Part shown: one piece after another, positions 1,518-42,932 of the stretch | How the letters are laid out: every line of letters starts with the position of its first letter | Position numbering within the stretch: the first letter of the stretch is position 1 | Source of the DNA: a virus | Reading direction: 5' to 3' (one strand) | Virus record (IMG/VR): IMGVR_UViG_3300044961_000506 | Coordinates: 1-46,698 of that record | Length of the DNA: 46,698 bases | Program-made: the position numbers and the translations under genes | The notes under the pieces: generated by a model | The model's input: only the letters and a program-made list of their open reading frames with translations | The model's database searches: none | Told to the model about the DNA's origin: nothing

Positions 1518-1540
1518 AATAAGAAGTTTTACTTCTTATT
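1518..1540 (-). terminator. Hairpin overlapping the stop of the 35-residue gene
   Basis: A 10-bp stem (AATAAGAAGT/ACTTCTTATT) with a 3-nt loop includes the stop codon of the 1529-1636 gene. No clear T-run follows, so it is at best a weak terminator or an RNA-stabilising 3' end. Confidence 0.4.
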
Positions 1541-1636
1541 CCTAAATATTTCACAAATTGAATGGATGATAATAGCCAGCGCGCTACCCATTCCTGCGAT
1601 AAATGCGGCAATCGCCAGACGCATTTCTAAGTCCAT
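1529..1636 (-). CDS. 35-residue single-pass membrane peptide
   Basis: This short gene has one of the best ribosome-binding sites in the window (AAAAGGAGAT, about 5 nt before the ATG). It encodes 35 residues: a short charged start (MDLEMR), a hydrophobic helix (about residues 7-24) and a basic tail ending RNKK. No family is recognised. Size and topology fit a holin-like, anti-holin or regulatory membrane peptide, but that is inference. It lies downstream of a promoter-like motif at 1743-1772 and a leader hairpin at 1708-1733, and ends in a hairpin, so it looks like its own small transcription unit. Confidence 0.65.
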   Translation of the reverse strand: MDLEMRLAIAAFIAGMGSALAIIIHSICEIFRNKK

Positions 1637-1707
1637 ACAATATCTCCTTTTGAATGTTAAGTTTATGACTGCCTTACTCAACGCAAGTAATAGCAAGTCA
1701 AATTAAA

Positions 1708-1733
1708 GATGTTAAGGTTTTAGTCTTAACATC
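1708..1733 (-). other. Leader stem-loop downstream of promoter motif
   Basis: A 9-bp stem (GATGTTAAG/CTTAACATC) with an 8-nt loop lies about 10 nt after the predicted -10 element at 1745-1750 and is followed by TTTAATTTG. It may be a 5' stabiliser, an attenuator for the 35-residue gene, or a very short RNA. Confidence 0.45.
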
Positions 1734-1742
1734 CTTATCAAA

Positions 1743-1772
1743 ATTATATAGCACAAAAAGGATGCCTATTGC
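1743..1772 (-). promoter_or_regulatory. Phage promoter candidate, copy 1 (GCAATAG-N11-GTGCTATATAAT)
   Basis: On the minus strand GCAATAG is followed after exactly 11 nt by GTGCTATATAAT, an extended -10-like box. The same two boxes with the same 11-nt spacing occur at 17018-17049 and 42312-42341. Here the upstream box lies in the loop and arm of the terminator at 1755-1776. The element therefore begins a new unit right where the previous gene's transcript ends, and it points at the 35-residue membrane gene. Confidence 0.65.
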
Positions 1773-1776
1773 ATCC
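1755..1776 (-). terminator. Rho-independent terminator after 1790-2194 gene
   Basis: Stem GGATGC/GCATCC with a 5-nt loop followed by five T residues on the minus strand, 14 nt beyond the stop of the 134-residue gene. It overlaps the upstream half of the promoter motif. Confidence 0.75.
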
Positions 1777-10950: not shown

Positions 10951-10965
10951 AGTGCTATATAACTA
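10951..10965 (+). promoter_or_regulatory. Partial promoter motif (GTGCTATATAAC), plus strand
   Basis: On the plus strand GTGCTATATAA is identical to the -10 box of the motif at 1743-1772. ACAG replaces the GCAAYAG upstream box and the spacing is one base shorter. It points rightward at the three stem-loops of 10966-11090. The reverse strand (TAGTTATATAGC) could alternatively serve the HTH-like gene. Confidence 0.35.
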
Positions 10966-11711: not shown

Positions 11712-11744
11712 AAGTTATTATAGTAATCAAAATTAAAAATACGT
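11712..11744 (-). promoter_or_regulatory. Possible sigma70-like promoter
   Basis: On the minus strand TTGACG is followed after 19 nt by TATAAT, starting at the stop codon of the 11744-12445 gene and ending just before the ATG at 11711. The spacing is longer than ideal, so this is tentative. Confidence 0.35.
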
Positions 11745-12445
11745 CAATCAGGCAATTTCATCGTCAAGTCGGCAACTTGATCAGGATTAAGCCAAACGTA
11801 TTTCTTTTTCCGTCGGTCGTAGAATCTGCTGTAAATGTTTTTATCTGAACCTATTTTTGTCCCCCAAGCTAGTCGGGTATCGATGCCTATTTTTTCAGAC
11901 TCCGGCCCTGCGATAGTGTCGTAAAAACCAAACTGAGAAGGGCTTAAAGATTGAGCCTCCTCTGTAATGACTTCAGTAGAACCCAACCCTCCCGGTCCCA
12001 TTTGAGTGAACCTCCTAGCCTGTTCAACTAAATGCATAGGGTTAATTTCTTCGAGGGGAGTCACCAATGGGTTATTAATAATAAAACCCTCTGTGTAATT
12101 ATCGAAAGCGTAAGGGTTAACCGCTTTAAGGGATTTTGTTTTGGCCACTCTTCTTAAAATAGACAGTCGTGTTTTATTAGCATCAAGCCGAATGCGTTCT
12201 CTAATTAAATCAGGAGGGCTATGAAATGACTTAAACCTCAAACTATCCCGACTGTCTGTAGGAATCAAACCACGGTTAACTGCTAATAACTTTTCTGTAG
12301 CCGCCAGCACCCCATTTAGACCGACCGACGTAAACTCATCGTCATCGTCGTCTGGAAAGCTTTTAGTAGGAATCGCCCGAACAGGCTGTTTAACAGTACC
12401 TGCCTTTATTAAAAGCTTCTGAATCTCTTCAATGGTCATGCTCAT
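11744..12445 (-). CDS. RNA polymerase beta-subunit fragment (fork-loop region)
   Basis: The 233-residue protein aligns by eye with the middle of bacterial RpoB, around the rifampicin-pocket and fork loop. RRFTQMGPGGLG corresponds to RRISALGPGGLT, SPSQFGFYDTIAGPESEKIG to [20 protein letters not shown], and an NPL precedes as in RpoB. Upstream, DLIRERIRLDANKTRLSILRR resembles the helices before the Rif region. The protein stops shortly after the fork region, so the catalytic C-terminal half of beta must be encoded elsewhere. Its ATG overlaps the stop of the beta N-terminal gene (TAATG), implying coupled synthesis of two parts of one subunit. Confidence 0.85.
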   Translation of the reverse strand: MSMTIEEIQKLLIKAGTVKQPVRAIPTKSFPDDDDDEFTSVGLNGVLAATEKLLAVNRGLIPTDSRDSLRFKSFHSPPDLIRERIRLDANKTRLSILRRVAKTKSLKAVNPYAFDNYTEGFIINNPLVTPLEEINPMHLVEQARRFTQMGPGGLGSTEVITEEAQSLSPSQFGFYDTIAGPESEKIGIDTRLAWGTKIGSDKNIYSRFYDRRKKKYVWLNPDQVADLTMKLPD

Positions 12446-15400
12446 TATTTTTCAAACGCATCGGCGTTGGCTGACAGCATATTAATTAATTTATCTTTAT
12501 GCTGATACTGTTTTATTTGATCTTTTAACTCAGAGTTGGTGTCGGAATTCCAGTTTCGCAGTTTGTCTCTAAGCGCCATTCGAACCACAAACCCTGGGTA
12601 AGGAACTTCTCTGAATTCCTTACGCTTCGATAAAGATTCCACAATAGGTTTGAGATCCGTTTTAGCGTCCACAATTCTATTGTAAATGTCAACCCCTTGT
12701 AAAGTGCTGGCCATCTTAACTTCTCCAACAATTTCGTCCCCAATAACCTCACTGGCAGGAATGACATCTTCGGAGTGCTCGCTTTCCTTTTTCCTAGCTC
12801 TTTTCTTTTTCCATTTTTGCCAAAGCCAATAACCAAGACCACCAGCTCCAGCAGCCGCCAAAGTCCAGCCTACAGTTCTTGGAAAACTTGTAATAGCGTT
12901 TCTGGCAAAACTGCCAAGACCTGCGTAAACTTTAGCCGCCGATCTTGCATCTTTTCCAATAGATGCATCCATGGTTTGTTTATATTTGAAAAATTTTGGA
13001 TCCGTCTTGGCTACATAATCATCAAAAGCGAAATAAAAATTGTCATTTAAGTTATCGTCATTAGGGTTAGCCAACGTAGATTTCCATTCCTTAATTTTTT
13101 TATTAAGAGTTGTTATGTCTGCACCGTTTTCATGCCATAACTGTAAGTACCCAGGAATTGATCCAGCTCGAAAAGCAAGATAATGCAAAGCAGAATCTTC
13201 AGCTTTTGAAATCCTACCTTTGTTATCGAACTCAATATACTTACGATTAAGCGGATCATTTGGATCTAAGTAATCAGCAATAGCTTTAGGAATAGGAACT
13301 TTTGAGTCTTTCCACCCCCATTGCGAATCAGGTTTCATTTGGGCTATGCCCTGTCTAAGTTTTTTAACATAGTCAATAACATCCATGTCGTAATACTTAG
13401 CTCGCATAGCTGCCGAACCATACATCAGATAGTCATTCAAAAAAGGTTTAGGCTGGAAATCAGGACTCCACTCATCTGGAAAAGAGTTGGACGAAATAAG
13501 AAATTTTTCAACTCCTGGCGATTCTTTACCTAAATCACCATAAGGATTTTTAGTTGCATAAATCAATCCCGCCCCACCAATTCCTGCCAATGCGCTAGCC
13601 GCAAGCAAATTACGTTCTTTTCTTTTTTCTTCCTTTTTATAATCTTCATCATCTTCCAAATTGGGGGTAGCTACGACACCACCACATTTTTCATGTTGTA
13701 TCTCATGTTCATCCAAAAACACGCATGAATGCTCATCAAGCTCTGTTCCACAGTGCGGGCAAACCCAAACAGACTCCGAAGCAGACTTAACAACTTCTTG
13801 GTTACCGTCTTTAGTTTCAACTATGCGATGCTCTTTTTTAGCAAATCTACGCAACTGCTCTGGTTTAACTCCAATATACCTTGGATCATCCAAATCAGCT
13901 TCCACCAGCTTAATTTTTTCATGCTTACTATTAGTGGCCTGATAAATCCCCGGTTTTAAACCGTGATCCACCATCTCAAAAAGAGCCGATCCTGCAAACT
14001 CTCCATTTCTTATATAGCCTAATAAACGAATCTTATCTTTGGTTTTTTCCGGATCTAATCCGAACTCTTCTTCAATTTCTCGAACAATCGTTTCCTTTAA
14101 ATTGGCATCCGACTTCGATTTATTGCCGCCTGCTGGACGCAGCTTGCCAACTTTTTCCTCAGGAGTCCATTTGTCCGGTAGTTCTTCTTGTAGAAGATAT
14201 TTTCCATTAGGTTGTTTAAATAAAACACCTGCGCCGTAGCGAGCTAGCTTTTCAAGAACCAAAATACCAGCTTCATGCACTACTTCTTCAGGAGAATAAA
14301 CAGATGCTTTTTTAATAACCGGAGAGTTTAGCGCTGCATTAAGAAGTTCTGGATTAAGACCACCTTGCGTTCTTAAAAAATTTTCAATCGCCTCTGCTAA
14401 CTCAGAGTATGTCGCATTTAAATCAATACCTGCTTGATGTTCTTTATTTAAAAATTGGGCAATGAGCTGAAGATCGGCTTTATCAATCGAAGACCTGTTA
14501 CTTCCACCAAAAATCGAATCGGAGGCGTTTTTATTAATAATGTATTCAGATTCTTTTTTAGCTTTGTAGTCCTCCATTTCCTTAGCAAAAGATTCCCTCT
14601 TTTCTTCGGGTAAAAGTTTTAACGGATCAATTGCCCAAGCGCGTAAAGCATAGGCACGTCGAGGCGTAGGATTTTTTACAAAAGCTGCGCCATGGCGAGC
14701 TTTAAATTTTTTCCAGCGCATAATTTGTCTGGCGTCGTCTTCATGCCTACGCCCATCACTATATTTAAAATACCACTCAACCCAACCTAAAGGATCAGAA
14801 CCTTCAGCAAACCATTTTGAAGGCCATTTCTCCATGCTGGCCAGCCGAGGACCAACACCAGCATACAAAGCATTATATATATCCTGCATTTCCTCCGGTT
14901 TCAAATCGGGTTCAAATGGGATATTAGCGGCATATTTTTCAAATAGTTCACGCCCAAGCGCACGGGCGCGCCATTCGGCCGATTTCGTCAAATCAAAAGC
15001 ATTTGGGAGAGTTTTGCGCACCACTCGTTTTGTAACTTTAACAGACTCCAAAGCCTCTTTAATAGCCTGCGCCTTTTGAGTATGGTCCGCATCAGCAATT
15101 TGCATTTTTTTAGGTACAAGGCGTTCGTAAGCTTTATTAAACACTCGAGCATCATATTTATTCTTATTCGCATCGAGTATTTCTGGCCCCCAAGAGGTTG
15201 CCAAAGCGTCATCTGGAACTCCTAAATCTTTTAATAATGAATAAAGGTGGAGATTGGAGTTTTGAATTTTTAAACGGTATTGCGCCGTATCAGGTTCAAA
15301 GGATATTCGAAAATCCGGTCCGGTTCCTTTTTTAGGATTTACTTGTGCTTCCAAATGTCCGTTATCTTGTTTACGAGTATAGATGCCTGGAAGCAATCGG

Positions 15401-15786
15401 GTCTGCCGGGCTGCGGCATATTCGTTGCCTCCGTGGATAATTGTGCCCCTCTCGGTAAGATAGGGCACACGCATCAAAGTCATCGTCTTTTCTTCTAGGA
15501 GGGTATTATCATCATCCTTAAAAAGCTTTACTGTTCCCCGCAAACGACGAGCCAAATATTTGTCCTCCAGTAGGGCTTTCTTTTGTTCATGTAAAGAATA
15601 GTCTTCCGGGTCAACGTAGTCCACGTCATGCAATTCCATACGGACACCACCGTAAGATTGCGGAAAGACCGAAAGCATCTCCTCTTTCACAGCATCGTAA
15701 ATACGACGCCGCCAAGCAGGAAAATCTTCAGGATCGATTAATTCTACGCCAGGAGGTTTAATATCATCGCTATCGTTATTAGGCAT
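12445..15786 (-). CDS. Multidomain RNA polymerase beta N-terminal homologue with Nudix-like, zinc-ribbon and membrane segments
   Basis: With the start MPNNDSDD (ATG 15786) the protein has about 1113 residues. Residues about 25-190 match the RpoB N-terminal lobe: SVFPQSYGG, RRLRGTVKLF, and especially RVPYLTERGTIIHGGNEYAA with QTRLLPGIY (RpoB: [27 protein letters not shown]). Next come a GWVEWY...GRRHEDDARQIMRW domain (about 315-392), a Nudix-like domain with REIEEEFGL (about 515-650), a Cys/His cluster CPHCG...C...HEKC (about 676-702), a membrane helix (about 727-745), a helical region and a second membrane helix (about 995-1015). The Nudix box is offset by one residue. A TTATATAAT box lies only 5-12 nt before the chosen ATG. 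Confidence 0.85.
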   Translation of the reverse strand: MPNNDSDDIKPPGVELIDPEDFPAWRRRIYDAVKEEMLSVFPQSYGGVRMELHDVDYVDPEDYSLHEQKKALLEDKYLARRLRGTVKLFKDDDNTLLEEKTMTLMRVPYLTERGTIIHGGNEYAAARQTRLLPGIYTRKQDNGHLEAQVNPKKGTGPDFRISFEPDTAQYRLKIQNSNLHLYSLLKDLGVPDDALATSWGPEILDANKNKYDARVFNKAYERLVPKKMQIADADHTQKAQAIKEALESVKVTKRVVRKTLPNAFDLTKSAEWRARALGRELFEKYAANIPFEPDLKPEEMQDIYNALYAGVGPRLASMEKWPSKWFAEGSDPLGWVEWYFKYSDGRRHEDDARQIMRWKKFKARHGAAFVKNPTPRRAYALRAWAIDPLKLLPEEKRESFAKEMEDYKAKKESEYIINKNASDSIFGGSNRSSIDKADLQLIAQFLNKEHQAGIDLNATYSELAEAIENFLRTQGGLNPELLNAALNSPVIKKASVYSPEEVVHEAGILVLEKLARYGAGVLFKQPNGKYLLQEELPDKWTPEEKVGKLRPAGGNKSKSDANLKETIVREIEEEFGLDPEKTKDKIRLLGYIRNGEFAGSALFEMVDHGLKPGIYQATNSKHEKIKLVEADLDDPRYIGVKPEQLRRFAKKEHRIVETKDGNQEVVKSASESVWVCPHCGTELDEHSCVFLDEHEIQHEKCGGVVATPNLEDDEDYKKEEKRKERNLLAASALAGIGGAGLIYATKNPYGDLGKESPGVEKFLISSNSFPDEWSPDFQPKPFLNDYLMYGSAAMRAKYYDMDVIDYVKKLRQGIAQMKPDSQWGWKDSKVPIPKAIADYLDPNDPLNRKYIEFDNKGRISKAEDSALHYLAFRAGSIPGYLQLWHENGADITTLNKKIKEWKSTLANPNDDNLNDNFYFAFDDYVAKTDPKFFKYKQTMDASIGKDARSAAKVYAGLGSFARNAITSFPRTVGWTLAAAGAGGLGYWLWQKWKKKRARKKESEHSEDVIPASEVIGDEIVGEVKMASTLQGVDIYNRIVDAKTDLKPIVESLSKRKEFREVPYPGFVVRMALRDKLRNWNSDTNSELKDQIKQYQHKDKLINMLSANADAFEK

Positions 15787-15788
15787 AC

Positions 15789-15806
15789 AATTTATATTAT
15801 ATAACC
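15789..15806 (-). promoter_or_regulatory. TATA-type box directly before the beta-like gene
   Basis: On the minus strand GGTTATATAATATAAATTG precedes the ATG at 15786. If used as a -10 element, the transcript would be almost leaderless. It resembles the GTGYTATATA boxes elsewhere but lacks the GCAAYAG partner. Confidence 0.4.
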
Positions 15807-15839
15807 GAAAGCGCATGAGCAAGCTTGGACATGATAGCT

Positions 15840-15888: not shown

Positions 15889-16842
15889 TTAATACATTGC
15901 GGCTAATCGGATTTGATTAAGCGCAGACGCATTTTCTTGTCCGAACTTAAAATTATCCGAAACGTCAAGCCCAAACCAGTCTATTTCTTGCATACCTCCT
16001 AAAGCTAGAGACGCTTTTGGATAGCGGCGCATAATTGCCCTAAGGTTTCCCCAAAGGTCCCCAGCAGTGGACATTTCAACCGCCATGTTTTTGTCATCCA
16101 TATCTTGTTCAAAATCATATATGGACATAGGACATGGTAGGTCTAATAATATTTTCATATTTTTACCACTGACAATATCCTTTACATTTCCATCACCTTC
16201 TTCAACAACCCACAAACGTGGGGCTACCCAATCAAAATGGCATTTTCCAAAGCTAACAGCTTTTGCCATTTGATTACCTGTCAATGTATGCCTTGCGCAT
16301 AACATGGGCGACGCATCAAGGGATACTCCGTATAAAAGAAATCCAGGAACTGGATTAGCTGATATACGGTGTAACCCCCCAACATTACCCAACGGAAAAT
16401 CTCCGTTTGGATGTTCGCCATTGCGCAATGTTTCTAGCGAAGGTAGCGAACGTGGGTCCCAGTTTTTAGCAGGGACAAACCTATACACACCGTCGTAGGC
16501 ATGTATCATACCTACCGACAGATCTAGCCAAGCTGGAGAAATTTGATCCAGCTTGTTATTCCATACTACAGCACACTCACCAGGACCAATTTTTATATTT
16601 TTTACATTTATATCCCACCTGTAAAGACAAGCAGTTTTAGCTCGGCAACGAATAGGCGGCAATTTTGGGACAGCTAGTTCGTCTTCAAACTTTACGCTAC
16701 CTACACGAAACGGGCTAGCATGACTAGGATCGGTGCTTTTGCTGTATTCGGAACCATTACCTACATCTTTTTGATCCTGCGCAACATCATCAAAATCAAA
16801 CTCAAAACCACTTGTCAAAGATTCATCAGTCCAGTCGCTCAT
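15889..16842 (-). CDS. Hypothetical protein, 317 aa
   Basis: Not recognised. The first 45 residues are acidic and probably disordered. The body (about 50-300) looks like a globular, aromatic- and proline-rich beta protein with several cysteines (IRCRAKTACLYRW, SPMLCARHTL, SFGKCHFDWV). No membrane helix or known motif is seen. It stands alone with its own terminator downstream and an A/T-only leader (TAAAAATAAATAAAC) without Shine-Dalgarno. It may be a structural protein, given its position beside the virion module, but this is inference. Confidence 0.7.
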   Translation of the reverse strand: MSDWTDESLTSGFEFDFDDVAQDQKDVGNGSEYSKSTDPSHASPFRVGSVKFEDELAVPKLPPIRCRAKTACLYRWDINVKNIKIGPGECAVVWNNKLDQISPAWLDLSVGMIHAYDGVYRFVPAKNWDPRSLPSLETLRNGEHPNGDFPLGNVGGLHRISANPVPGFLLYGVSLDASPMLCARHTLTGNQMAKAVSFGKCHFDWVAPRLWVVEEGDGNVKDIVSGKNMKILLDLPCPMSIYDFEQDMDDKNMAVEMSTAGDLWGNLRAIMRRYPKASLALGGMQEIDWFGLDVSDNFKFGQENASALNQIRLAAMY

Positions 16843-16848
16843 AATAGT

Positions 16849-17034
16849 TTATTTATTTTTATGTGCCCCAAGAAAGAAACAAACAGGAACAAGCAACGCC
16901 AACAAAGGTAACAAACTTATTAACAAACAAAGGGCTGCCCAAAGAAAGGGCAGCCCATAAACCACGGTGAACAAGGTCAATAAAGGCCATGCCCACCAAG
17001 ATATGTTGGTGTTCACAATTATATATAACACCAA
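16849..17034 (-). CDS. Possible small hydrophobic protein (61 aa; non-ATG start)
   Basis: An open frame encodes a very hydrophobic peptide with five tryptophans, two likely membrane helices and a basic AHKNK end. No ATG is available: the start would be TTG at 17034 or GTG at 17013. The first lies inside a promoter-like element, and a 9-bp terminator-like hairpin (16932-16956) interrupts the frame. It may be a genuine small membrane protein, like the 35-residue one at 1529, or the region may only encode a short structured RNA. Confidence 0.35.
   Translation of the reverse strand: MVLYIIVNTNISWWAWPLLTLFTVVYGLPFLWAALCLLISLLPLLALLVPVCFFLGAHKNK
16921..16956 (-). terminator. Strong GC hairpin terminator
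   Basis: GGGCTGCCC and GGGCAGCCC pair perfectly around a 7-nt loop and are followed on the minus strand by TTTGTTTGTTA. It would end transcription from the 17050-17604 gene or from the promoter motif at 17018-17049. Confidence 0.7.
16921..17013 (-). ncRNA. Candidate short structured RNA downstream of promoter copy 2
   Basis: On the minus strand, right after the GTGTTATATATAATT box, GTGAAC (17011-17016) can pair with GTTCAC (16967-16972), enclosing a CACCAA/TTGGTG hairpin. A 9-bp perfect stem GGGCTGCCC/GGGCAGCCC (16932-16956) and TTTGTTTGTTA follow, the form of an intrinsic terminator. The unit would be about 85-90 nt. The alternative is a leader plus small membrane gene (16849-17034). Confidence 0.4.
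17006..17034. repeat. Inverted repeat around promoter copy 2
   Basis: TTGGTGTT (17006-17013) and AACACCAA (17027-17034) form an 8-bp dyad whose centre is the -10-like TATATATAAT box, with a further GATAT/ATATC pair outside. The placement suits an operator or a 5' RNA structure. Confidence 0.45.
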
Positions 17035-17049
17035 AACAATATCTATTGC
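17018..17049 (-). promoter_or_regulatory. Phage promoter candidate, copy 2 (GCAATAG-N11-GTGTTATATATAAT)
   Basis: On the minus strand GCAATAG is followed after 11 nt by GTGTTATATATAAT, the same boxes and spacing as at 1743-1772. It begins 1 nt after the stop codon of the 17050-17604 gene and faces the structured 16921-17013 stretch. Confidence 0.65.
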
Positions 17050-17604
17050 TTACTTCTTATTAGTATTAAATTTAGGTCGAACATGAATAGTATTGCCAGC
17101 AACGCTTAGCACTTCGCCATGTCCGTTAAGAGAATCACCCGGAGCAATAGTCTCCTTTGCGTCCAAGGCATTTAAAATACCAACGATAGTATTATTAGCC
17201 ACACGTGCCGGAAGTTGCGTTACTGTAATATTTCCATTCTTATCGAATGAAATAATCATTTCAGTAACACCTTTCAAATCTTCGGGTTCGCCCCCTCTGG
17301 AAAACGCATTTTCCGGGCAAATGTCAGCACCGAAAACAGTCCCAGTTTCATCCACCAAAAACCAGAACATTTTATCCACCTGCAGGTTCCAACGCTCCGG
17401 AGAGGTGGCGGAAGGACGAACCCGAGCTAGTACGGCTGGAGTACATGGGTAGCGAACTTCGGCACTATCTTTATTAATAAATACAACTTTACCAACTAGT
17501 TTGTCCTGCTCTTCTCGAATTTCAACCGGCTTAACCGAAAGCGCTTGAATACGAGTTCCTACACGGGTGGGTTTCTTTAACACATTATTGGATGTCAGAT
17601 CCAT
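17050..17604 (-). CDS. Hypothetical protein, 184 aa
   Basis: Not recognised. It looks like a beta-rich, soluble protein (KLVGKVVFINKDSAEVRY; GNITVTQLPARV; HGEVLSVAGNTIHV), perhaps one or two small barrels, with no membrane helix. Its start overlaps the end of the zinc-finger gene (17585-18097) by 20 nt, so it is the last gene of the replication and recombination operon. A role in DNA metabolism is plausible only by position. Confidence 0.7.
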   Translation of the reverse strand: MDLTSNNVLKKPTRVGTRIQALSVKPVEIREEQDKLVGKVVFINKDSAEVRYPCTPAVLARVRPSATSPERWNLQVDKMFWFLVDETGTVFGADICPENAFSRGGEPEDLKGVTEMIISFDKNGNITVTQLPARVANNTIVGILNALDAKETIAPGDSLNGHGEVLSVAGNTIHVRPKFNTNKK

Positions 17605-24132: not shown

Positions 24133-27100
24133 TAGTTCCTTTTATTTAGTTTTTCTTTTTCTTCTTTAGTTGGTTTCCACGACCACGCGAAAACCAAATC
24201 TGTGTCAATCGGGTAGAACATTTCCCGACCGTGGTAAGTCCATGTATTTTCATCAACCATGAAACGCTGATGCAATTCGACTACCTTAAATCTTTCTTCC
24301 ATAGGGCAGAATGTAACAACAGAGTCATACAAAACGATACCTACACGAGCCTGCATATTATTAGCTCTAAAGTAATCATTTAATTTATTAGCGGCTCGGG
24401 CGGCTGTTGCGGCTACTGATTCCTGAAAGTAGAAGTTACGGGCTTCACGGCCCATTGAGCTATGTAGGCTTTTCTTTAGCTTATAGCTAACTTTATCGGA
24501 AACATATTCAGGGTGAGTTTTGAAATGTCGAACCCTACCGCTGGCAGCACGTAAATAACCTGGGTCCATCGGAGCTTCCTCCAATGACAACAAAAACGAA
24601 GTCGCAATAGGTTGCCTTTCAGCAAGAGCTTTCAACAACTTATCACCAGTTCCTTTTTCCGGTTTGATACCTGTATCCGCTTCAATCTTTCTTTCCAACG
24701 TCGCGCCTGTAGCACCATAGGCGGAACTGAAATTACCCACTTTGGCTGCGCTCCTATGCTTGTCCGGGTTCATGAGCTCACGAGGTTTTTCGTAAGTCAT
24801 TTCGGCCAGCGACCAGTGAAGGTCAGCCTTGGGATGCTTTAGAGTTCCATCATCATTTCTTAGTAACTCACTTTCACTTACTTTCCTAATAACCTTACCA
24901 TCTTTAACTACAGCCATAATCAGATCAGGTATTTGTGCTTCCTTAGGAATACCGCAGTCCTCTGCGTAATTGAGGCGAACCATAGTAGGTTTATCATCAC
25001 CTTTGAGAAGCACAAACCCAAACTGAGGGTCTGGTTCGGTCATTATGCGAATAAGTCTATCGTCGCCGGATATGAAAGCCAACCCGCGAATTTCAGCGGT
25101 TTGGTAGTCCGACTCTACCATGCACCAGCCTTCAGGGGCAGCTACACAAGAACGAAGACTAGGTATCTTTTCAGTCCTATAGCGTTCAAACTCTTTTGGA
25201 AGTATGCCTTCTTCGTAGTCAGTCTGAATAACCCTTTTAACACCTGCGTTGATTGAATCATTAACCCATTTAGGCCAGTTGAGGCAATTTGGTTTCCACG
25301 TTCTTGGGCGACCAGTTTCTGTAGCGCTATATTGACAATGAACTCTACCGTCACTGGCAATCCAATAGTGAATACCATTTTCCTTAATTAAATTACCTTC
25401 CTCATCAACATCAGCTTCTTTCAAAAATGCCTTACAAAGATTACCAACCGCATTGAGCTGCAAAAGCAACTTCAAAAGATCATCTTGATACTGCTCAGCT
25501 AAAATAGTTAACGTTTGTTTATCTGTTGCGGGCGTATATTCTTTTTGACGATCGGTCGGAAAAGTCTCGACTTTTTCCCAAGGTATTGACGGCGTACCTC
25601 GTTCTTTATTACCTGTCGATTTAACAGGTTTCATACCTTTAACATCAAAAAGCCACCTGCGCATCATTGGACCAGAACGAATATTAAAATTATCTGCCTC
25701 GAGGTAATGATTCCAAATTGGCAAAAGCTTAGAAACTTTATCTGCTCCTGCTAAACGCTTAGCCGACTTAAAAGCTTTTTCAACATCATTTACAAACAAG
25801 TCATTTAAAATGTCCGTCACTTGTTCCTCATTACCATTACTTACTTCATTAAGAAAATTTACTAAAAATATTTCTGCTTCTTGCTTAACCTTTCTTTGTA
25901 AAATAACCGACAACCTATCTCTTACATAAGTAAACAAAGACCTTAAATCATCTAATTTTTTCTTGTCTATTGGCAATCCGAATAAAGCAAAATCAGTAAA
26001 AACATTAGTAACAAAAGGAAGAAAAATGTCATAATAATAATCTAAAAGCTCTTGCTTCTCTAACTCGGCAAACAAAATAGGGTAAGCCCTAAAAGGAACA
26101 TCAACGTCATAACAAGCATACGGAATAATAATTTCATCAGGCACAAGCCCATATCCATCTTCCTCAGAATTTTTATTTTCCTTACACCAAAGCATCAAAT
26201 CCAAATCGTAACGCCCGCAATCTGTGTATTGAACCGACAAGCGTTCCAAACCAAGCCCTGCGTATTCGTCAACACACTGTTGAGCAAACTCAGTGTCCAT
26301 CAAACATTTATTATAATATTCCAAACCTAAAACATGATACATCCAAGGGAAATCGGCCGATATGTGGTGCCCGACATATTTTACATGAGGCTTATTAAGG
26401 TATTCCCCTAGTATAGCTCCAGCTTCTTTATAGCTAATGTCAAAGACGTAATTCTTATGAGCATCCATGAAACGCACATAAGCAGCTTCGCCAGGGGCCC
26501 AACATAGCTGAATGCTGCGCAGCTTCCCATCAACATGATTTCTTCCAGACCATTCACAGTCCACGGAAATAACCGAATACTGACCGTCTTTAAGTTGCTG
26601 CACTAAAGATCGTAGATCATTGGAGTCGTAAATCGTCCGGTAATTGGTTTTAACCGTGTCCACTTCAACGCCTTTAAGCGACAGCAGCATCCTGCGGAGC
26701 TCCTTAAAGTTCACATGAAACTTTTCTAGGTAGTCCGGTTTCAGAACCAACTGAACCGGATTAGGCATAGGGAATATGCGACAGTTAAACCGCTTACTCC
26801 AAAACCACCCGCATTCTATATCGCTAAGCTTCAGCTTCATCGGATAAAGCATGTCAAAAACATGCTTACCCAAAGCCACAATCACCTTCGGCTTTACTTT
26901 AGAGATTTCTTCAATAAGGCAAGGCATGCTGGCGGCCAGCTGTTGCTTTGTGGGCTTAAGGCGGCTAGCCCTTGGCAAAAGATATTTAATAAGTGCCGTA
27001 TAATAACATTGATCCACATCAATACCGTTACTCAACGCACAGTCTTTGAACATCGTACCCGCTGGGCCTTTTAGATAACGAGGCTTAGATTTAATCTTAA

Positions 27101-39529: not shown

Positions 39530-39598
39530 AGGTGACTTGTTAACCACAAAAGAATGATGACAATATGATTGCCTTATGGCAAGGTTGTTTCTTTAAAG

Positions 39599-41959
39599 AT
39601 GCGTAACGATCTTTACTACAGATTAAGGCACGATACTGATTTTAGAAATCGGTTGCACATTCTTTCGGAGCGTATTCGAAAGTCTTCGGATAAAGCCGAC
39701 AAGGATGCTTTAGCCTCGACACAGAGGAACAAAGACTTAATAGAACTTTATAAGCTTAGCAACTTTAACCCCGGATTGCTTGTTCCTTATTTTTTCCCTG
39801 CCTACCCAAAAACGCAGCCGCTTTCGTTGCGCTCTCGTCCTTTTGTGTTTTCCATGCTGGACTTTATTGTGGGAGGTTATTTAGTCATCAGAGCCAGCCG
39901 CCAAATAGGTAAGTGTTTCGACTGTAACACTTTACATGAAGTTATAGTTGACGAAGGCCCAGTTAAAATAATGACGGCAGAGCAGCTATTTGCCCTCTGC
40001 TTAAGTATGCAGACCGAAGAGCCCGAATTGAAACCTGGGGAAATACCAGCTTCCGACTGGCATATTGATAAATCCGTTTACGTTGAAAGGGACCGTATCA
40101 AAGTTAGAACACCTACAGGGTTTAGTTCATTGAAGCGAGCTTTTAAAACTCATAACATGGCCCCGTGGTTGCTAGTTACTTCTAAGCACACGTTAAAAGC
40201 GGCCGGGAAGCATATTGTAGTGCGGGCAGATGGTGCTCAAGTTTGGGTGCAAGATGTTGAAGTTGGAGATATGGTCCAAACAGTTGACGGACCTTTATTT
40301 GTTACGCATGTCGAACAACCAACTCAAGAAACTACTTGGGTGCCCATGTTCGACTTTGAAGTGGATACTCTAGAGCATCTGCATTATACCAGCGGCATTC
40401 TTTCCCATAACTCTACTGGGCTTATCGCTAGGCAGCTTATTAATAGTCATATCCTGCCTAATTTTAGAAGTCTCTACATAGCCCCATTTACGGAGCATGT
40501 TAAAACATACGCCAGTAGGTTTAGAGAAATGGAGCGTGCTTTTAGGTTTCCGGAAACTTCGCCTAACTGCCGTCAGAACTTGAACCTAAAAGAATACAGC
40601 AACGGTTCCAAAGTCGAACTTCTCCGGATCTTAAGTTCCGCCAAAGATGCTCGTGGTAAATCAACAGACGAGCTTCTTTATGACGAATACCAACTTTTTG
40701 ATCCGGAATTAGAGCTTGAGGTGGAGCAGACCCAATCCCAATCAGAACTTCCAATAACAATTTACAGCGGAACTTCTGTAACGGTGGATACTCCTTTAGA
40801 AAGCAGATACGTTCAAAGCTCAGGCGGTGTCTGGATGATGCGCGCCAGAGACGGTAAACATTGGATTAACTGCGGAGACCCTGATGATGTTTTAAGAGTT
40901 TTTAAACCTGAAGGTCCGACTTGTCCCTACACAGGACGCCTGCTCGATGTTACTGATGGGGATTTTGTCCATGCCGATCAAAACATGTATAAGGCAGGCA
41001 GGCGAGGATTACACATCCCTCAGATCATTGTCCCCGATAACGTGCAGAATCAAGTTAAATGGGCAAAGATCTATCGGTCCTTTGTTTCTGCAGACCGTAA
41101 AAAGTTTTTACAGGAAATCATGGGCATCCCCACTGAAGAGGGGGCCAGAGAACTTACTCTTGAACAACTTAAAAGAATGTGTTGTTTGGAAGAATCCAAA
41201 GAAGCTTTACGTAAAAAAGCCAGACAAGGTTTTTACCGTTATGTCATAAGCGGATGTGACTGGGGCGGTTCTGATTTCTTACCTGATCAAAAGTCCAAAG
41301 TTTCTTATACGGTTCACGCTATCTTAGGTTTAAGACACGACAACAAATTCGATATACTTCATATGGCCCGGTATTCTGGTATGAGTTACCGGGAAATTGC
41401 GGGGGCGATTGCCAACGATCATGAACACTTTGGGGGTGGTCCAATCGGCACTGACTTTGGTGTTGGCGCAGCTTACAACATGTTGCTTCGTGAAAGCCCC
41501 AAAATTAATGCCGATAGGCATATTATTTTTTACTACACAGGACCGACTTCGGCTCCAATTAGTTTGGTCGATAAAGAACATCAAATCTATAATATGTATT
41601 CTCTTAATAGAACAGAGTCCATCACCTCACTTTACGAAGCCATAAAGCATAGCGACGGCCCAAGAATTCGGTGTTACTCTTGGGCCGAAGCTAGCTCTTA
41701 CCTAGAAGACTTTATGAACCTTTACCGCGTGCCCACGGAAACGGCCGCAGGAAATACGGGGTTCCGTTACCGCAGGCACGGGGCTAAGGCTGATGATACA
41801 TTACATGCTGTCAACTTTGCTTTCGTCATAGGTCGACTTCTGTGCAACGAACCACTAGTCGAAGACAAAGGACTTCAAGATTCTCTTAATGCCTTACTAT
41901 CAGGACAAGCCCATGCCGGGCTTGGCGCATTGTTTACTGGTCCGGCTATTTCTGGTTAA
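39599..41959 (+). CDS. Terminase large subunit interrupted by a mini-intein
   Basis: The packaging motor that pumps DNA through the portal. The host protein splits at RASRQIGK and resumes STGLIARQL, so the intein interrupts the Walker A loop. After splicing, the ATPase has LLYDEYQ (Walker B-like) and the nuclease has GCDWGGS, GTDFGVGAAY and KADDTLHA metal-binding residues. Before splicing the P-loop cannot form, so ATPase activity depends on intein excision. The ATG at 39599 (MRNDLYYRL) is preferred over TTG at 39569; neither has a strong Shine-Dalgarno. It is one of only two plus-strand genes and ends overlapping the convergent 41956-42141 gene by 4 nt. Confidence 0.92.
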   Translation: MRNDLYYRLRHDTDFRNRLHILSERIRKSSDKADKDALASTQRNKDLIELYKLSNFNPGLLVPYFFPAYPKTQPLSLRSRPFVFSMLDFIVGGYLVIRASRQIGKCFDCNTLHEVIVDEGPVKIMTAEQLFALCLSMQTEEPELKPGEIPASDWHIDKSVYVERDRIKVRTPTGFSSLKRAFKTHNMAPWLLVTSKHTLKAAGKHIVVRADGAQVWVQDVEVGDMVQTVDGPLFVTHVEQPTQETTWVPMFDFEVDTLEHLHYTSGILSHNSTGLIARQLINSHILPNFRSLYIAPFTEHVKTYASRFREMERAFRFPETSPNCRQNLNLKEYSNGSKVELLRILSSAKDARGKSTDELLYDEYQLFDPELELEVEQTQSQSELPITIYSGTSVTVDTPLESRYVQSSGGVWMMRARDGKHWINCGDPDDVLRVFKPEGPTCPYTGRLLDVTDGDFVHADQNMYKAGRRGLHIPQIIVPDNVQNQVKWAKIYRSFVSADRKKFLQEIMGIPTEEGARELTLEQLKRMCCLEESKEALRKKARQGFYRYVISGCDWGGSDFLPDQKSKVSYTVHAILGLRHDNKFDILHMARYSGMSYREIAGAIANDHEHFGGGPIGTDFGVGAAYNMLLRESPKINADRHIIFYYTGPTSAPISLVDKEHQIYNMYSLNRTESITSLYEAIKHSDGPRIRCYSWAEASSYLEDFMNLYRVPTETAAGNTGFRYRRHGAKADDTLHAVNFAFVIGRLLCNEPLVEDKGLQDSLNALLSGQAHAGLGALFTGPAISG
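39914..40411 (+). other. Mini-intein (166 residues) in the terminase
   Basis: The element starts with Cys (CFDCNTLHEVIV, block A), has TSKH in block B (LLVTSKHTLKAAGKH), FDFEVDTLEHLHYTSG (block F) and ends HN (block G) before Ser+1. At 166 residues it lacks a homing endonuclease, so it is a minimal splicing element. The insertion point between GK and ST of the P-loop is a common intein site because the residues are invariant. Confidence 0.92.
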
Positions 41960-42141
41960 CTGGCAGTTTGCCATTCACCAAAGCCATTATTACCTTTGCG
42001 CTTAATAGCTTTCTCAAGATTCTTGTATTCTTGTTCGAATGTTATTTTCTTAGTCGGCTTCAATCCAACGGCGACCAGCCCACTCTTTTTGCCTTTATCA
42101 ATACCTGCGATACTTAACAGATCATTCTTCTTGTTTCTCAT
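41956..42141 (-). CDS. Small basic protein, 61 aa
   Basis: Not recognised. A short lysine-rich product (MRNKKNDLLSIAGIDKGKKSGL, split here only for length) with a helical middle (FEQEYKNLEKAIKRKG). AAGG lies about 7 nt before the ATG. It is convergent with the terminase (4-nt overlap) and downstream of the stem-loop cluster at 42165-42311 and promoter copy 3. Moderately supported by the ribosome-binding site and composition. Confidence 0.5.
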   Translation of the reverse strand: MRNKKNDLLSIAGIDKGKKSGLVAVGLKPTKKITFEQEYKNLEKAIKRKGNNGFGEWQTAS

Positions 42142-42164: not shown

Positions 42165-42311
42165 ACCTGATATTTAAAAATAAATAATCAGGTAACTGTT
42201 ATTAATCGCTGGGCGCACAGCCCGGACGATTTTGTAACCGAGTTTCTTCGGTTACAAAAGAATAGGAATAATGGTCCTATTCTTTGCACAGCCAACAACG
42301 GACCGTGCAAA
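42165..42311 (-). ncRNA. Cluster of five consecutive stem-loops (candidate structured RNA or leader)
   Basis: In non-coding DNA between the 42330-42932 and 41956-42141 genes lie hairpins A (42165-42193, ACCTGAT/ATCAGGT), B (42209-42225, GGGC/GCCC), C (42230-42259, 12 bp perfect), D (42257-42285, 11 bp perfect) and E (42283-42311, TTTGCAC/GTGCAAA). C, D and E share 3-nt ends, so they are adjacent or mutually exclusive. GCACAGCC occurs in both B and E. On the minus strand D is followed by TTTTG, a possible terminator. Promoter copy 3 faces the cluster. A packaging (pac) site beside the terminase is an alternative. Confidence 0.5.
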
Positions 42312-42341
42312 TATATATAACACAAATAACTAGGCTGTTGC
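42312..42341 (-). promoter_or_regulatory. Phage promoter candidate, copy 3 (GCAACAG-N11-GTGTTATATATATT)
   Basis: On the minus strand GCAACAG, in the last codons of the 42330-42932 gene, is followed after 11 nt by GTGTTATATATATT. Boxes and spacing match copies 1 and 2. It points at the stem-loop cluster and the 61-residue gene. Confidence 0.65.
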
Positions 42342-42932
42342 AGAGGAGCTTGGCAGGGATATACCAAGCTTAGCCAGCTGGGTTTCCAGCAGGGCCTTCT
42401 GAGCGTTCACAAACTTAGCGTGGTATGGGAGAATTTCCGGTAGAGTATCTACCGATTCATCTATATGTTCTTCCCGTTCTTCTTCGATTTGCTTTTCAAT
42501 GAATCTTAAACAGGCTGGAGAAAATTCCGAAGGTTCTTCCCTATTAAGTTCGACTTCGTATGTGGCCCATAAAATTTCAGGAATCGTAACGTCTTCCAAA
42601 AAGCCATTCACAATGTCATCTAGGTCCCCATTATAAAGCGAAGAAGCTATAGCCACCATTGCTTCAGGTTCTTCATAAAAAGCGTCCGTGCTTACCGCCA
42701 ATCGGATTGCGTTAATTCGATTTTCGTTTTCCACAGGAATAGAAGTTCGAAAATCTTCTTCAAGTCTGGCGATGATTTCCAATATGTCCATGGGAGGGAT
42801 ATCGTTTTCCGGATCGCCGTAAACTTCTTCCCCATAAGCGGATAAAATAATGATGTGCAAAACTGTGGCGAAAGTATCTGAATCGCCAAGCAGGGCTGCC
42901 GCTTCTTCAACACTGAATGGTAGGGGTCGCAT
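42330..42932 (-). CDS. Hypothetical acidic protein, 200 aa
   Basis: Not recognised. A very acidic, helical protein with no membrane helix (IPPMDILEIIARLEEDF; RFIEKQIEEEREEHIDES). The upstream gene stops 3 nt before its ATG, so the two are co-expressed. Acidic helical proteins next to terminase and portal-type genes can be scaffold or core components, but there is no family evidence. Confidence 0.7.
   Translation of the reverse strand: MRPLPFSVEEAAALLGDSDTFATVLHIIILSAYGEEVYGDPENDIPPMDILEIIARLEEDFRTSIPVENENRINAIRLAVSTDAFYEEPEAMVAIASSLYNGDLDDIVNGFLEDVTIPEILWATYEVELNREEPSEFSPACLRFIEKQIEEEREEHIDESVDTLPEILPYHAKFVNAQKALLETQLAKLGISLPSSSATA

Follow-up and report, generated by a model that had tools for sequence, protein, structure and literature searches.

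Phage sigma promoters and the T4 middle promoters (MotA box plus -10) are composed of two boxes, a phage factor replacing the -35 specificity on the core enzyme of the host. According to reviews published between 2020 and 2026, large phages either have an RNA polymerase (RNAP) of their own and no sigma homologue, as stated for RNAP-encoding jumbo phages, or have a sigma factor and use the host polymerase (PMC7598289, PMC7824862, PMC13282480). The lineage analyzed here pairs its own RNAP with its own sigma factor, the combination that RNAP-encoding phages lack according to these reviews, and displays a matching promoter code visible by eye; the motifs described below are very probably promoters of such a family, which is unstudied. 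They resemble phage sigma and T4 middle promoters in having two boxes, but this lineage also encodes pieces of its own core. With the promoters of phages using a split multisubunit RNAP (virion RNAP promoters) they share a phage-specific AT-rich element near -10 (PMC7598289); here, however, a second box is present at -35, along with a TG extension and a recognizable sigma70-family gene, and the DNA polymerase is family-A-like. Phages of the phiKZ/AR9 type, which have two RNAPs with one of them packaged in the virion, combine a split multisubunit RNAP with the lack of any sigma homologue. A split RNAP was found here (beta-N and beta fork parts in the window, beta-C/beta'-N parts in relatives), whereas the lack of a sigma was not, a sigma70-family protein being encoded by the related records G001, G012, G042 and G043. 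A full-text search for phages with both an RNAP and a sigma factor of their own returned one off-subject paper only, and no paper on the related phage Arash was found; both searches covered open-access literature only, and a description elsewhere is possible.

The window is a complete virus record of 46,698 bases, linear and probably partial. Most of its proteins received no PHROG assignment, and those assigned concern replication and packaging (family-A-like DNA polymerase, UvsX-like, DnaB-like and SbcC/SbcD-like proteins, large terminase). A DNA polymerase search of the viral collection yielded G001 as the only relative (94%). The syntenic records G002, G003, G004 and G007, found through the motif, have 24-27 proteins in common with the window at about 37% identity; G011-G016 group with G002, and G040 and G042 represent further clades. 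Salmonella phage Arash and Vibrio phages D69, D148 and D181 carry homologous RNAP, terminase and portal genes at about 20-35% protein identity, and Arash and D69 a sigma factor as well. A host search through terminase homologues in genome contigs found none.

Searching the whole record for GCAAYAG-N11-GTGYTATATA gave three matches on the reverse strand and none on the forward strand, and none for the reversed-pattern control. The exact copies were located at 1745-1772, 17022-17049 and 42314-42341, all on the minus strand and all with the 11-nt spacing, strand and spacing being as claimed in a preliminary description of this DNA, and they are far above chance: allowing up to three mismatches added a single, poor match in the window (0.38 expected), and no shuffle reached four. 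The lone plus-strand GTGYTATATA that had been placed at 10951 was found at 10952-10961 (GTGCTATATA); having neither the upstream box nor a downstream TTG, it is not a member of the motif. The copies were also said to lie at gene ends and to be followed by a small gene or stem-loops, and both statements hold. The stop of gene 1790-2194 is 17 nt away from site 1, that of 17050-17604 directly adjoins site 2 and that of 42330-42932 lies inside the motif at site 3; a hairpin and a small ORF were present downstream of each copy. The proposal that the motif drives short transcripts is only partly supported: a small gene comes after each window site, but some copies in relatives stand ahead of longer series of genes, one including an RNAP beta fragment. 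No tRNA and no convincing member of known RNA families was detected in the window.

Putative promoter 1 (1739..1772, minus strand) consists of a -35-like box GCAATAG (1772-1766), N11 and an extended -10 GTGCTATATAATTTTG (1754-1739), with the inferred +1 at 1739. Its -35 box overlaps an arm and the loop of the terminator-like hairpin of the preceding gene (1760..1776, minus strand, GGATGC-AATAG-GCATCC plus TTTTT). A 5' hairpin of the transcript was predicted by folding at 1704..1737 (minus strand), ahead of an ORF for a membrane-like protein of 35 aa (1529..1636, minus strand), which has AAGGAG in front of its ATG and is conserved in G001. Promoter 2 (17016..17049, minus strand) comprises GCAATAG (17049-17043), N11 and GTGTTATATATAATTG (17031-17016). 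Its inferred +1, 17016, is where the predicted 5' hairpin begins (16989..17016, minus strand) and is also the GTG start codon of a small hydrophobic ORF (16849..17016, minus strand; 55 aa, membrane-like) whose start is conserved at the syntenic site in eight genomes. With this ORF conserved, a non-coding RNA at site 2 was rejected. A terminator-like hairpin lies within the ORF (16932..16956, minus strand), and relatives have a hairpin of other sequence at the equivalent place, as judged by eye. Just upstream of promoter 2, a conserved protein of 184 aa is encoded (17050..17604, minus strand), the C-terminus of which is weakly KOW/Spt5-like, below the cut-off. Promoter 3 (42308..42341, minus strand) contains GCAACAG (42341-42335), N11 and GTGTTATATATATTTG (42323-42308); the predicted 5' hairpin (42286..42308, minus strand) begins at the inferred +1, 42308, and is followed by two further hairpins and by an ORF of 61 aa (41956..42141, minus strand; ATG at about +168) that is conserved in G001 and convergent with the terminase gene. 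The three inferred starts differ by at most 6 nt from those expected in the preliminary description (1736, 17010 and 42305).

Related records contained up to about nine copies of the motif each, all on the coding strand, and the refined consensus was G(C/A)WAYAR-N11-GTGYTATATAWAWTTG(TA). A position matrix retrieved 55 high-scoring sites in 13 related records and none in the reversed sequence; a GCAAYAR-like box (at most two mismatches to the degenerate form) was found at the -35 spacing in 61 of 66 core sites from 14 records. The site after the homologue of 17050-17604 was syntenic in the window, G001-G004, G007, G013 and G014. In G002, one copy precedes both a 66-aa ORF and the gene for beta-N; other copies are located close to tRNA clusters. 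As most relatives were recruited through the motif itself, two motif-independent fetches, by terminase and by sigma homologues, matter. The terminase fetch returned nine contigs, eight of them with the motif and all eight already known from the motif scans. The ninth, G042, is the main misfit to the promoter explanation: sigma and RNAP genes are present and no recognizable motif was found. The sigma fetch produced one new record, G043, a distant relative of 52% G+C, in which GCAATAA-N11-NNGTTATATATAYTTGA-type sites occur at five places, all on the plus strand and three with a perfect GCAATAA, so that both boxes appear at a spacing identical to that of the window. A few weak matches that fall within the conserved gene for DNA polymerase (G002 70909, G011 8923, G012 66903) are probably a coding coincidence; the starts of MGK... 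ORFs after copies with a 12-nt spacing in G002 and G007, which may be another, were excluded. Single-copy matches of the pattern scans were mostly not followed, and those tested (G020, G021, G023, G035) were not relatives and were taken as chance. A near-invariant leader, GTACGCACCGGAATTATCTAGGACGTACTT, directly follows the promoter and precedes an ATG at G002 89887, G003 53832, G004 10282, G007 3613, G011 26611 and G016 4500; it is possibly a conserved regulatory leader.

Folding was scanned in 30-nt segments over 40 non-redundant sites. It was strongest (mean -6.3 kcal/mol) for segments beginning at the G closing the conserved WTTG or at most 3 bases before it, and reached only about -2 to -3 kcal/mol for those starting at least 10 bases from the inferred +1, at which the first base was paired in 55%. 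The stems differ in sequence and keep their pairing, as in GUACGGGUA-GUAA-UAUCUGUGC, GUACGGCAG-UUAAUAC-CUGUUGUGC and AUGGGUAA..UUAUCCAU, a covariation noted by eye and uncounted. At the syntenic site 2, in eight genomes, the consensus A two bases past this G is replaced by G, and the resulting GTG codon opens the small hydrophobic ORF, whose N-terminus is collinear across the eight. The folding peak and this codon place +1 at or just before the conserved G, although the start itself is unmapped. With +1 at that G, TATATA would occupy about -11 to -6, ending 6 nt upstream of the G where folding begins, with TG just upstream of it and GCAAYA 16 bp upstream. The inferred geometry would be sigma70-like with different bases, namely a -35 box, an extended -10 TGY-TATATA and a start at the final G, for which no transcript data exist. 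GCAAYA-N16-TATATA satisfies the 16-18 bp spacing of sigma70-type promoters, but GCAAYAR and TATATA stand where the canonical TTGACA and TATAAT would be expected, and these are therefore not ordinary host sigma70 promoters. A consensus scan for the latter gave counts near chance. Most transcripts are predicted, again without transcript data, to begin with a hairpin. In addition, a terminator-like hairpin was found upstream of or overlapping the promoter at 10 of the 40 sites, window site 1 included, versus 2.75 when shuffled; at several of them the -35 box is in the hairpin loop and the U-run leads into GTG, so that a single segment can both terminate a transcript and initiate the following one.

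Two pieces of the beta subunit of a split multisubunit RNAP are encoded in the window, as identified by similarity. The first (11744..12445, minus strand) is the fork part, with PF04565 (RNA_pol_Rpb2_3) above the cut-off and an alignment with beta 285-460 of solved RNAPs. The second (12445..15822, minus strand) includes the N-terminal lobe, its first 300 aa or so aligning with beta ~30-235; this alignment is weak, but the best matches are RNA polymerases. The product continues for about 800 more residues, in which hydrophobic segments and a weak match to NUDIX occur, and its homologue in G002 has only 399 aa. The catalytic part was detected in G040 and G042 alone and in none of the other fragments: G040 encodes a protein of 1,224 aa that combines Rpb2_6 with Rpb1_2, NADFDGD included (beta-C/beta'-N), and G042 has these parts, again with NADFDGD, in separate genes. 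This part closely resembles its cellular counterparts (E 1e-47). No T7-like RNAP was matched in any record; the control genomes were silent too, and absence is not demonstrated.

A sigma70-family protein is encoded in every related record that reaches its locus, which lies about 10-13 kb beyond the terminase in G001, G012, G042 and G043 as in Arash and D69; the window, G002, G003, G004 and G040 end before it. Consequently, the sigma homologue is documented for G001, which is 91% identical, and not for the window itself. Pfam Sigma70_r3 scored above the cut-off in G001 and G012, Pfam region 4 gave no match and region 2 matched below the cut-off only. Sigma region 3 is the part contacting the extended -10 element, which fits the conserved TG. 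Two sigma factors are annotated in Arash, one of which, gp10, is homologous to proteins of G001, G012 and G042 (E 1e-11 to 1e-13). An AlphaFold model (pLDDT 79.6, pTM 0.41, five sequences only) gave sigma factors as top Foldseek matches in the PDB with probability 1.00; global TM values were only 0.3-0.5, and the domain arrangement is thus uncertain. Within the window, a region-2 match inside the SbcD-like gene was taken as noise, and 15889-16842 was rejected as a candidate sigma for want of similarity. Vibrio phage D69, which has its own sigma factors and RNAP, carries an annotated Srd anti-sigma factor (L227, 23371-23910).

The motifs are most readily understood as phage-specific promoters of sigma70 geometry, read by the phage sigma70-family protein, most likely on the phage's own split RNAP; in the absence of transcript and binding data, we consider this reading reasonably probable. 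It is also possible, if unlikely, that the phage sigma redirects the host core at these sites and that the phage RNAP, perhaps carried in the virion, is reserved for promoters of another class. The host core is the usual partner of phage sigma factors (PMC7598289), and the Arash and D69 annotations place sigma and polymerase genes near structural genes, so that the phage's own RNAP could belong to the virion and use different promoters. However, sigma and multisubunit RNAP co-occur in G042, Arash and D69, and a catalytic part as close to the cellular ones as that reported above may still bind a sigma.

A more doubtful alternative is that the sites are ordinary Bacteroidota promoters, with TTTG at -33 and TAnnTTTG at -7 (TTTG / TANNTTTG), recognized by the sigmaABfr holoenzyme of the host. 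TAWAWTTG is similar to the -7 element and fits its TAHHTTTG form (PMC6847099), and four related genomes have little or no Shine-Dalgarno enrichment. In the window, by contrast, a Shine-Dalgarno signal precedes 10 of 33 starts versus 2 in the control. Furthermore, the -33 TTTG is missing, conserved GCAAYAR being found there, the conserved GTGY with its extended TG is extra, and canonical TTTG-N18-22-TAHHTTTG was not enriched. The sigmaABfr start lies 5-6 nt past the G, whereas here folding and the site-2 GTG codon begin at the G; those relatives that are annotated are phages of Salmonella and Vibrio, and the host of the window phage is unidentified. Taken by itself, the -10 sequence would still allow a Bacteroidota reading, but the absence of TTTG at -33, the inferred start position and the phage sigma count against it. 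Finally, one site in four has a terminator-like hairpin, the window copies always lie at gene ends and conserved structured RNA is present downstream, which could point to an element other than a promoter, such as a processing site, a terminator, or a replication or packaging signal. This is very improbable, as the folded RNA is downstream of the conserved boxes, which keep a fixed spacing, point in the direction of transcription throughout the records and are followed by ORFs whose starts are conserved.

The phage-specific promoter class put forward in the preliminary description has strong sequence support: two-box geometry, conservation, strand bias, fixed spacing, syntenic recurrence, the folding signal at the inferred +1, RNAP pieces and a sigma homologue are all observable, even though transcript data are lacking. 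If these promoters are read by the phage sigma on the phage core, an inference for both partners, the holoenzyme would bind GCAAYAR and TGY-TATATA and start, as inferred above, at the G closing WTTG. The 5' end of the nascent RNA would fold at once into a 5'-terminal hairpin, which by inference probably protects it; 5'-terminal stems slow 5'-end-dependent decay. Transcripts would begin where genes end, sometimes within the preceding gene's terminator, and would express small genes or series of genes further downstream. Whether the lineage possesses a wholly self-contained sigma-dependent system, with its own split multisubunit core, its own sigma70-family factor, its own -35/extended -10 code and a +1 hairpin heading most transcripts, is in our opinion evenly balanced. 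If true, it would provide a small, testable viral holoenzyme, a route to annotating promoters and small genes in an uncharacterized phage group, and a bridge from cellular sigma-dependent initiation to the divergent specificity factors of phiKZ and AR9.

Several other features were recorded in these genomes. The window terminase (39569-41959, plus strand) has an insertion at residues ~116-281, ending HN|S right after a Walker-type RQIGK motif, that looks like an intein. Large insertions were seen in the terminase, DNA polymerase and RNAP beta fork (G003, G004) of relatives, and a LAGLIDADG domain in the beta gene of G042. A strong inverted repeat at 281-308 of the window, between ORFs 1-300 and 319-1320, is a possible two-way terminator. 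Very many GGATTCTGTTTGG-type repeats, which would give xSVxDSV-like peptide repeats if coding, occur in G002, G003 (from about 3100 down) and G007; one of their 10-mers has 48 exact copies in G002. Arash has its own repeated TGGTATAAGTA motif, with other bases and no visible -35 box. In this phage (L205-L208), the promoter-like 10-mer GGTATAAGTA occurs 16 times, mostly before minus-strand genes, and a dispersed repeat is formed by facing GGTTACAACGTTTG copies near 26700, 66450, 100200, 138550 and 173330, their strand positions being exactly 137 bases apart each time.
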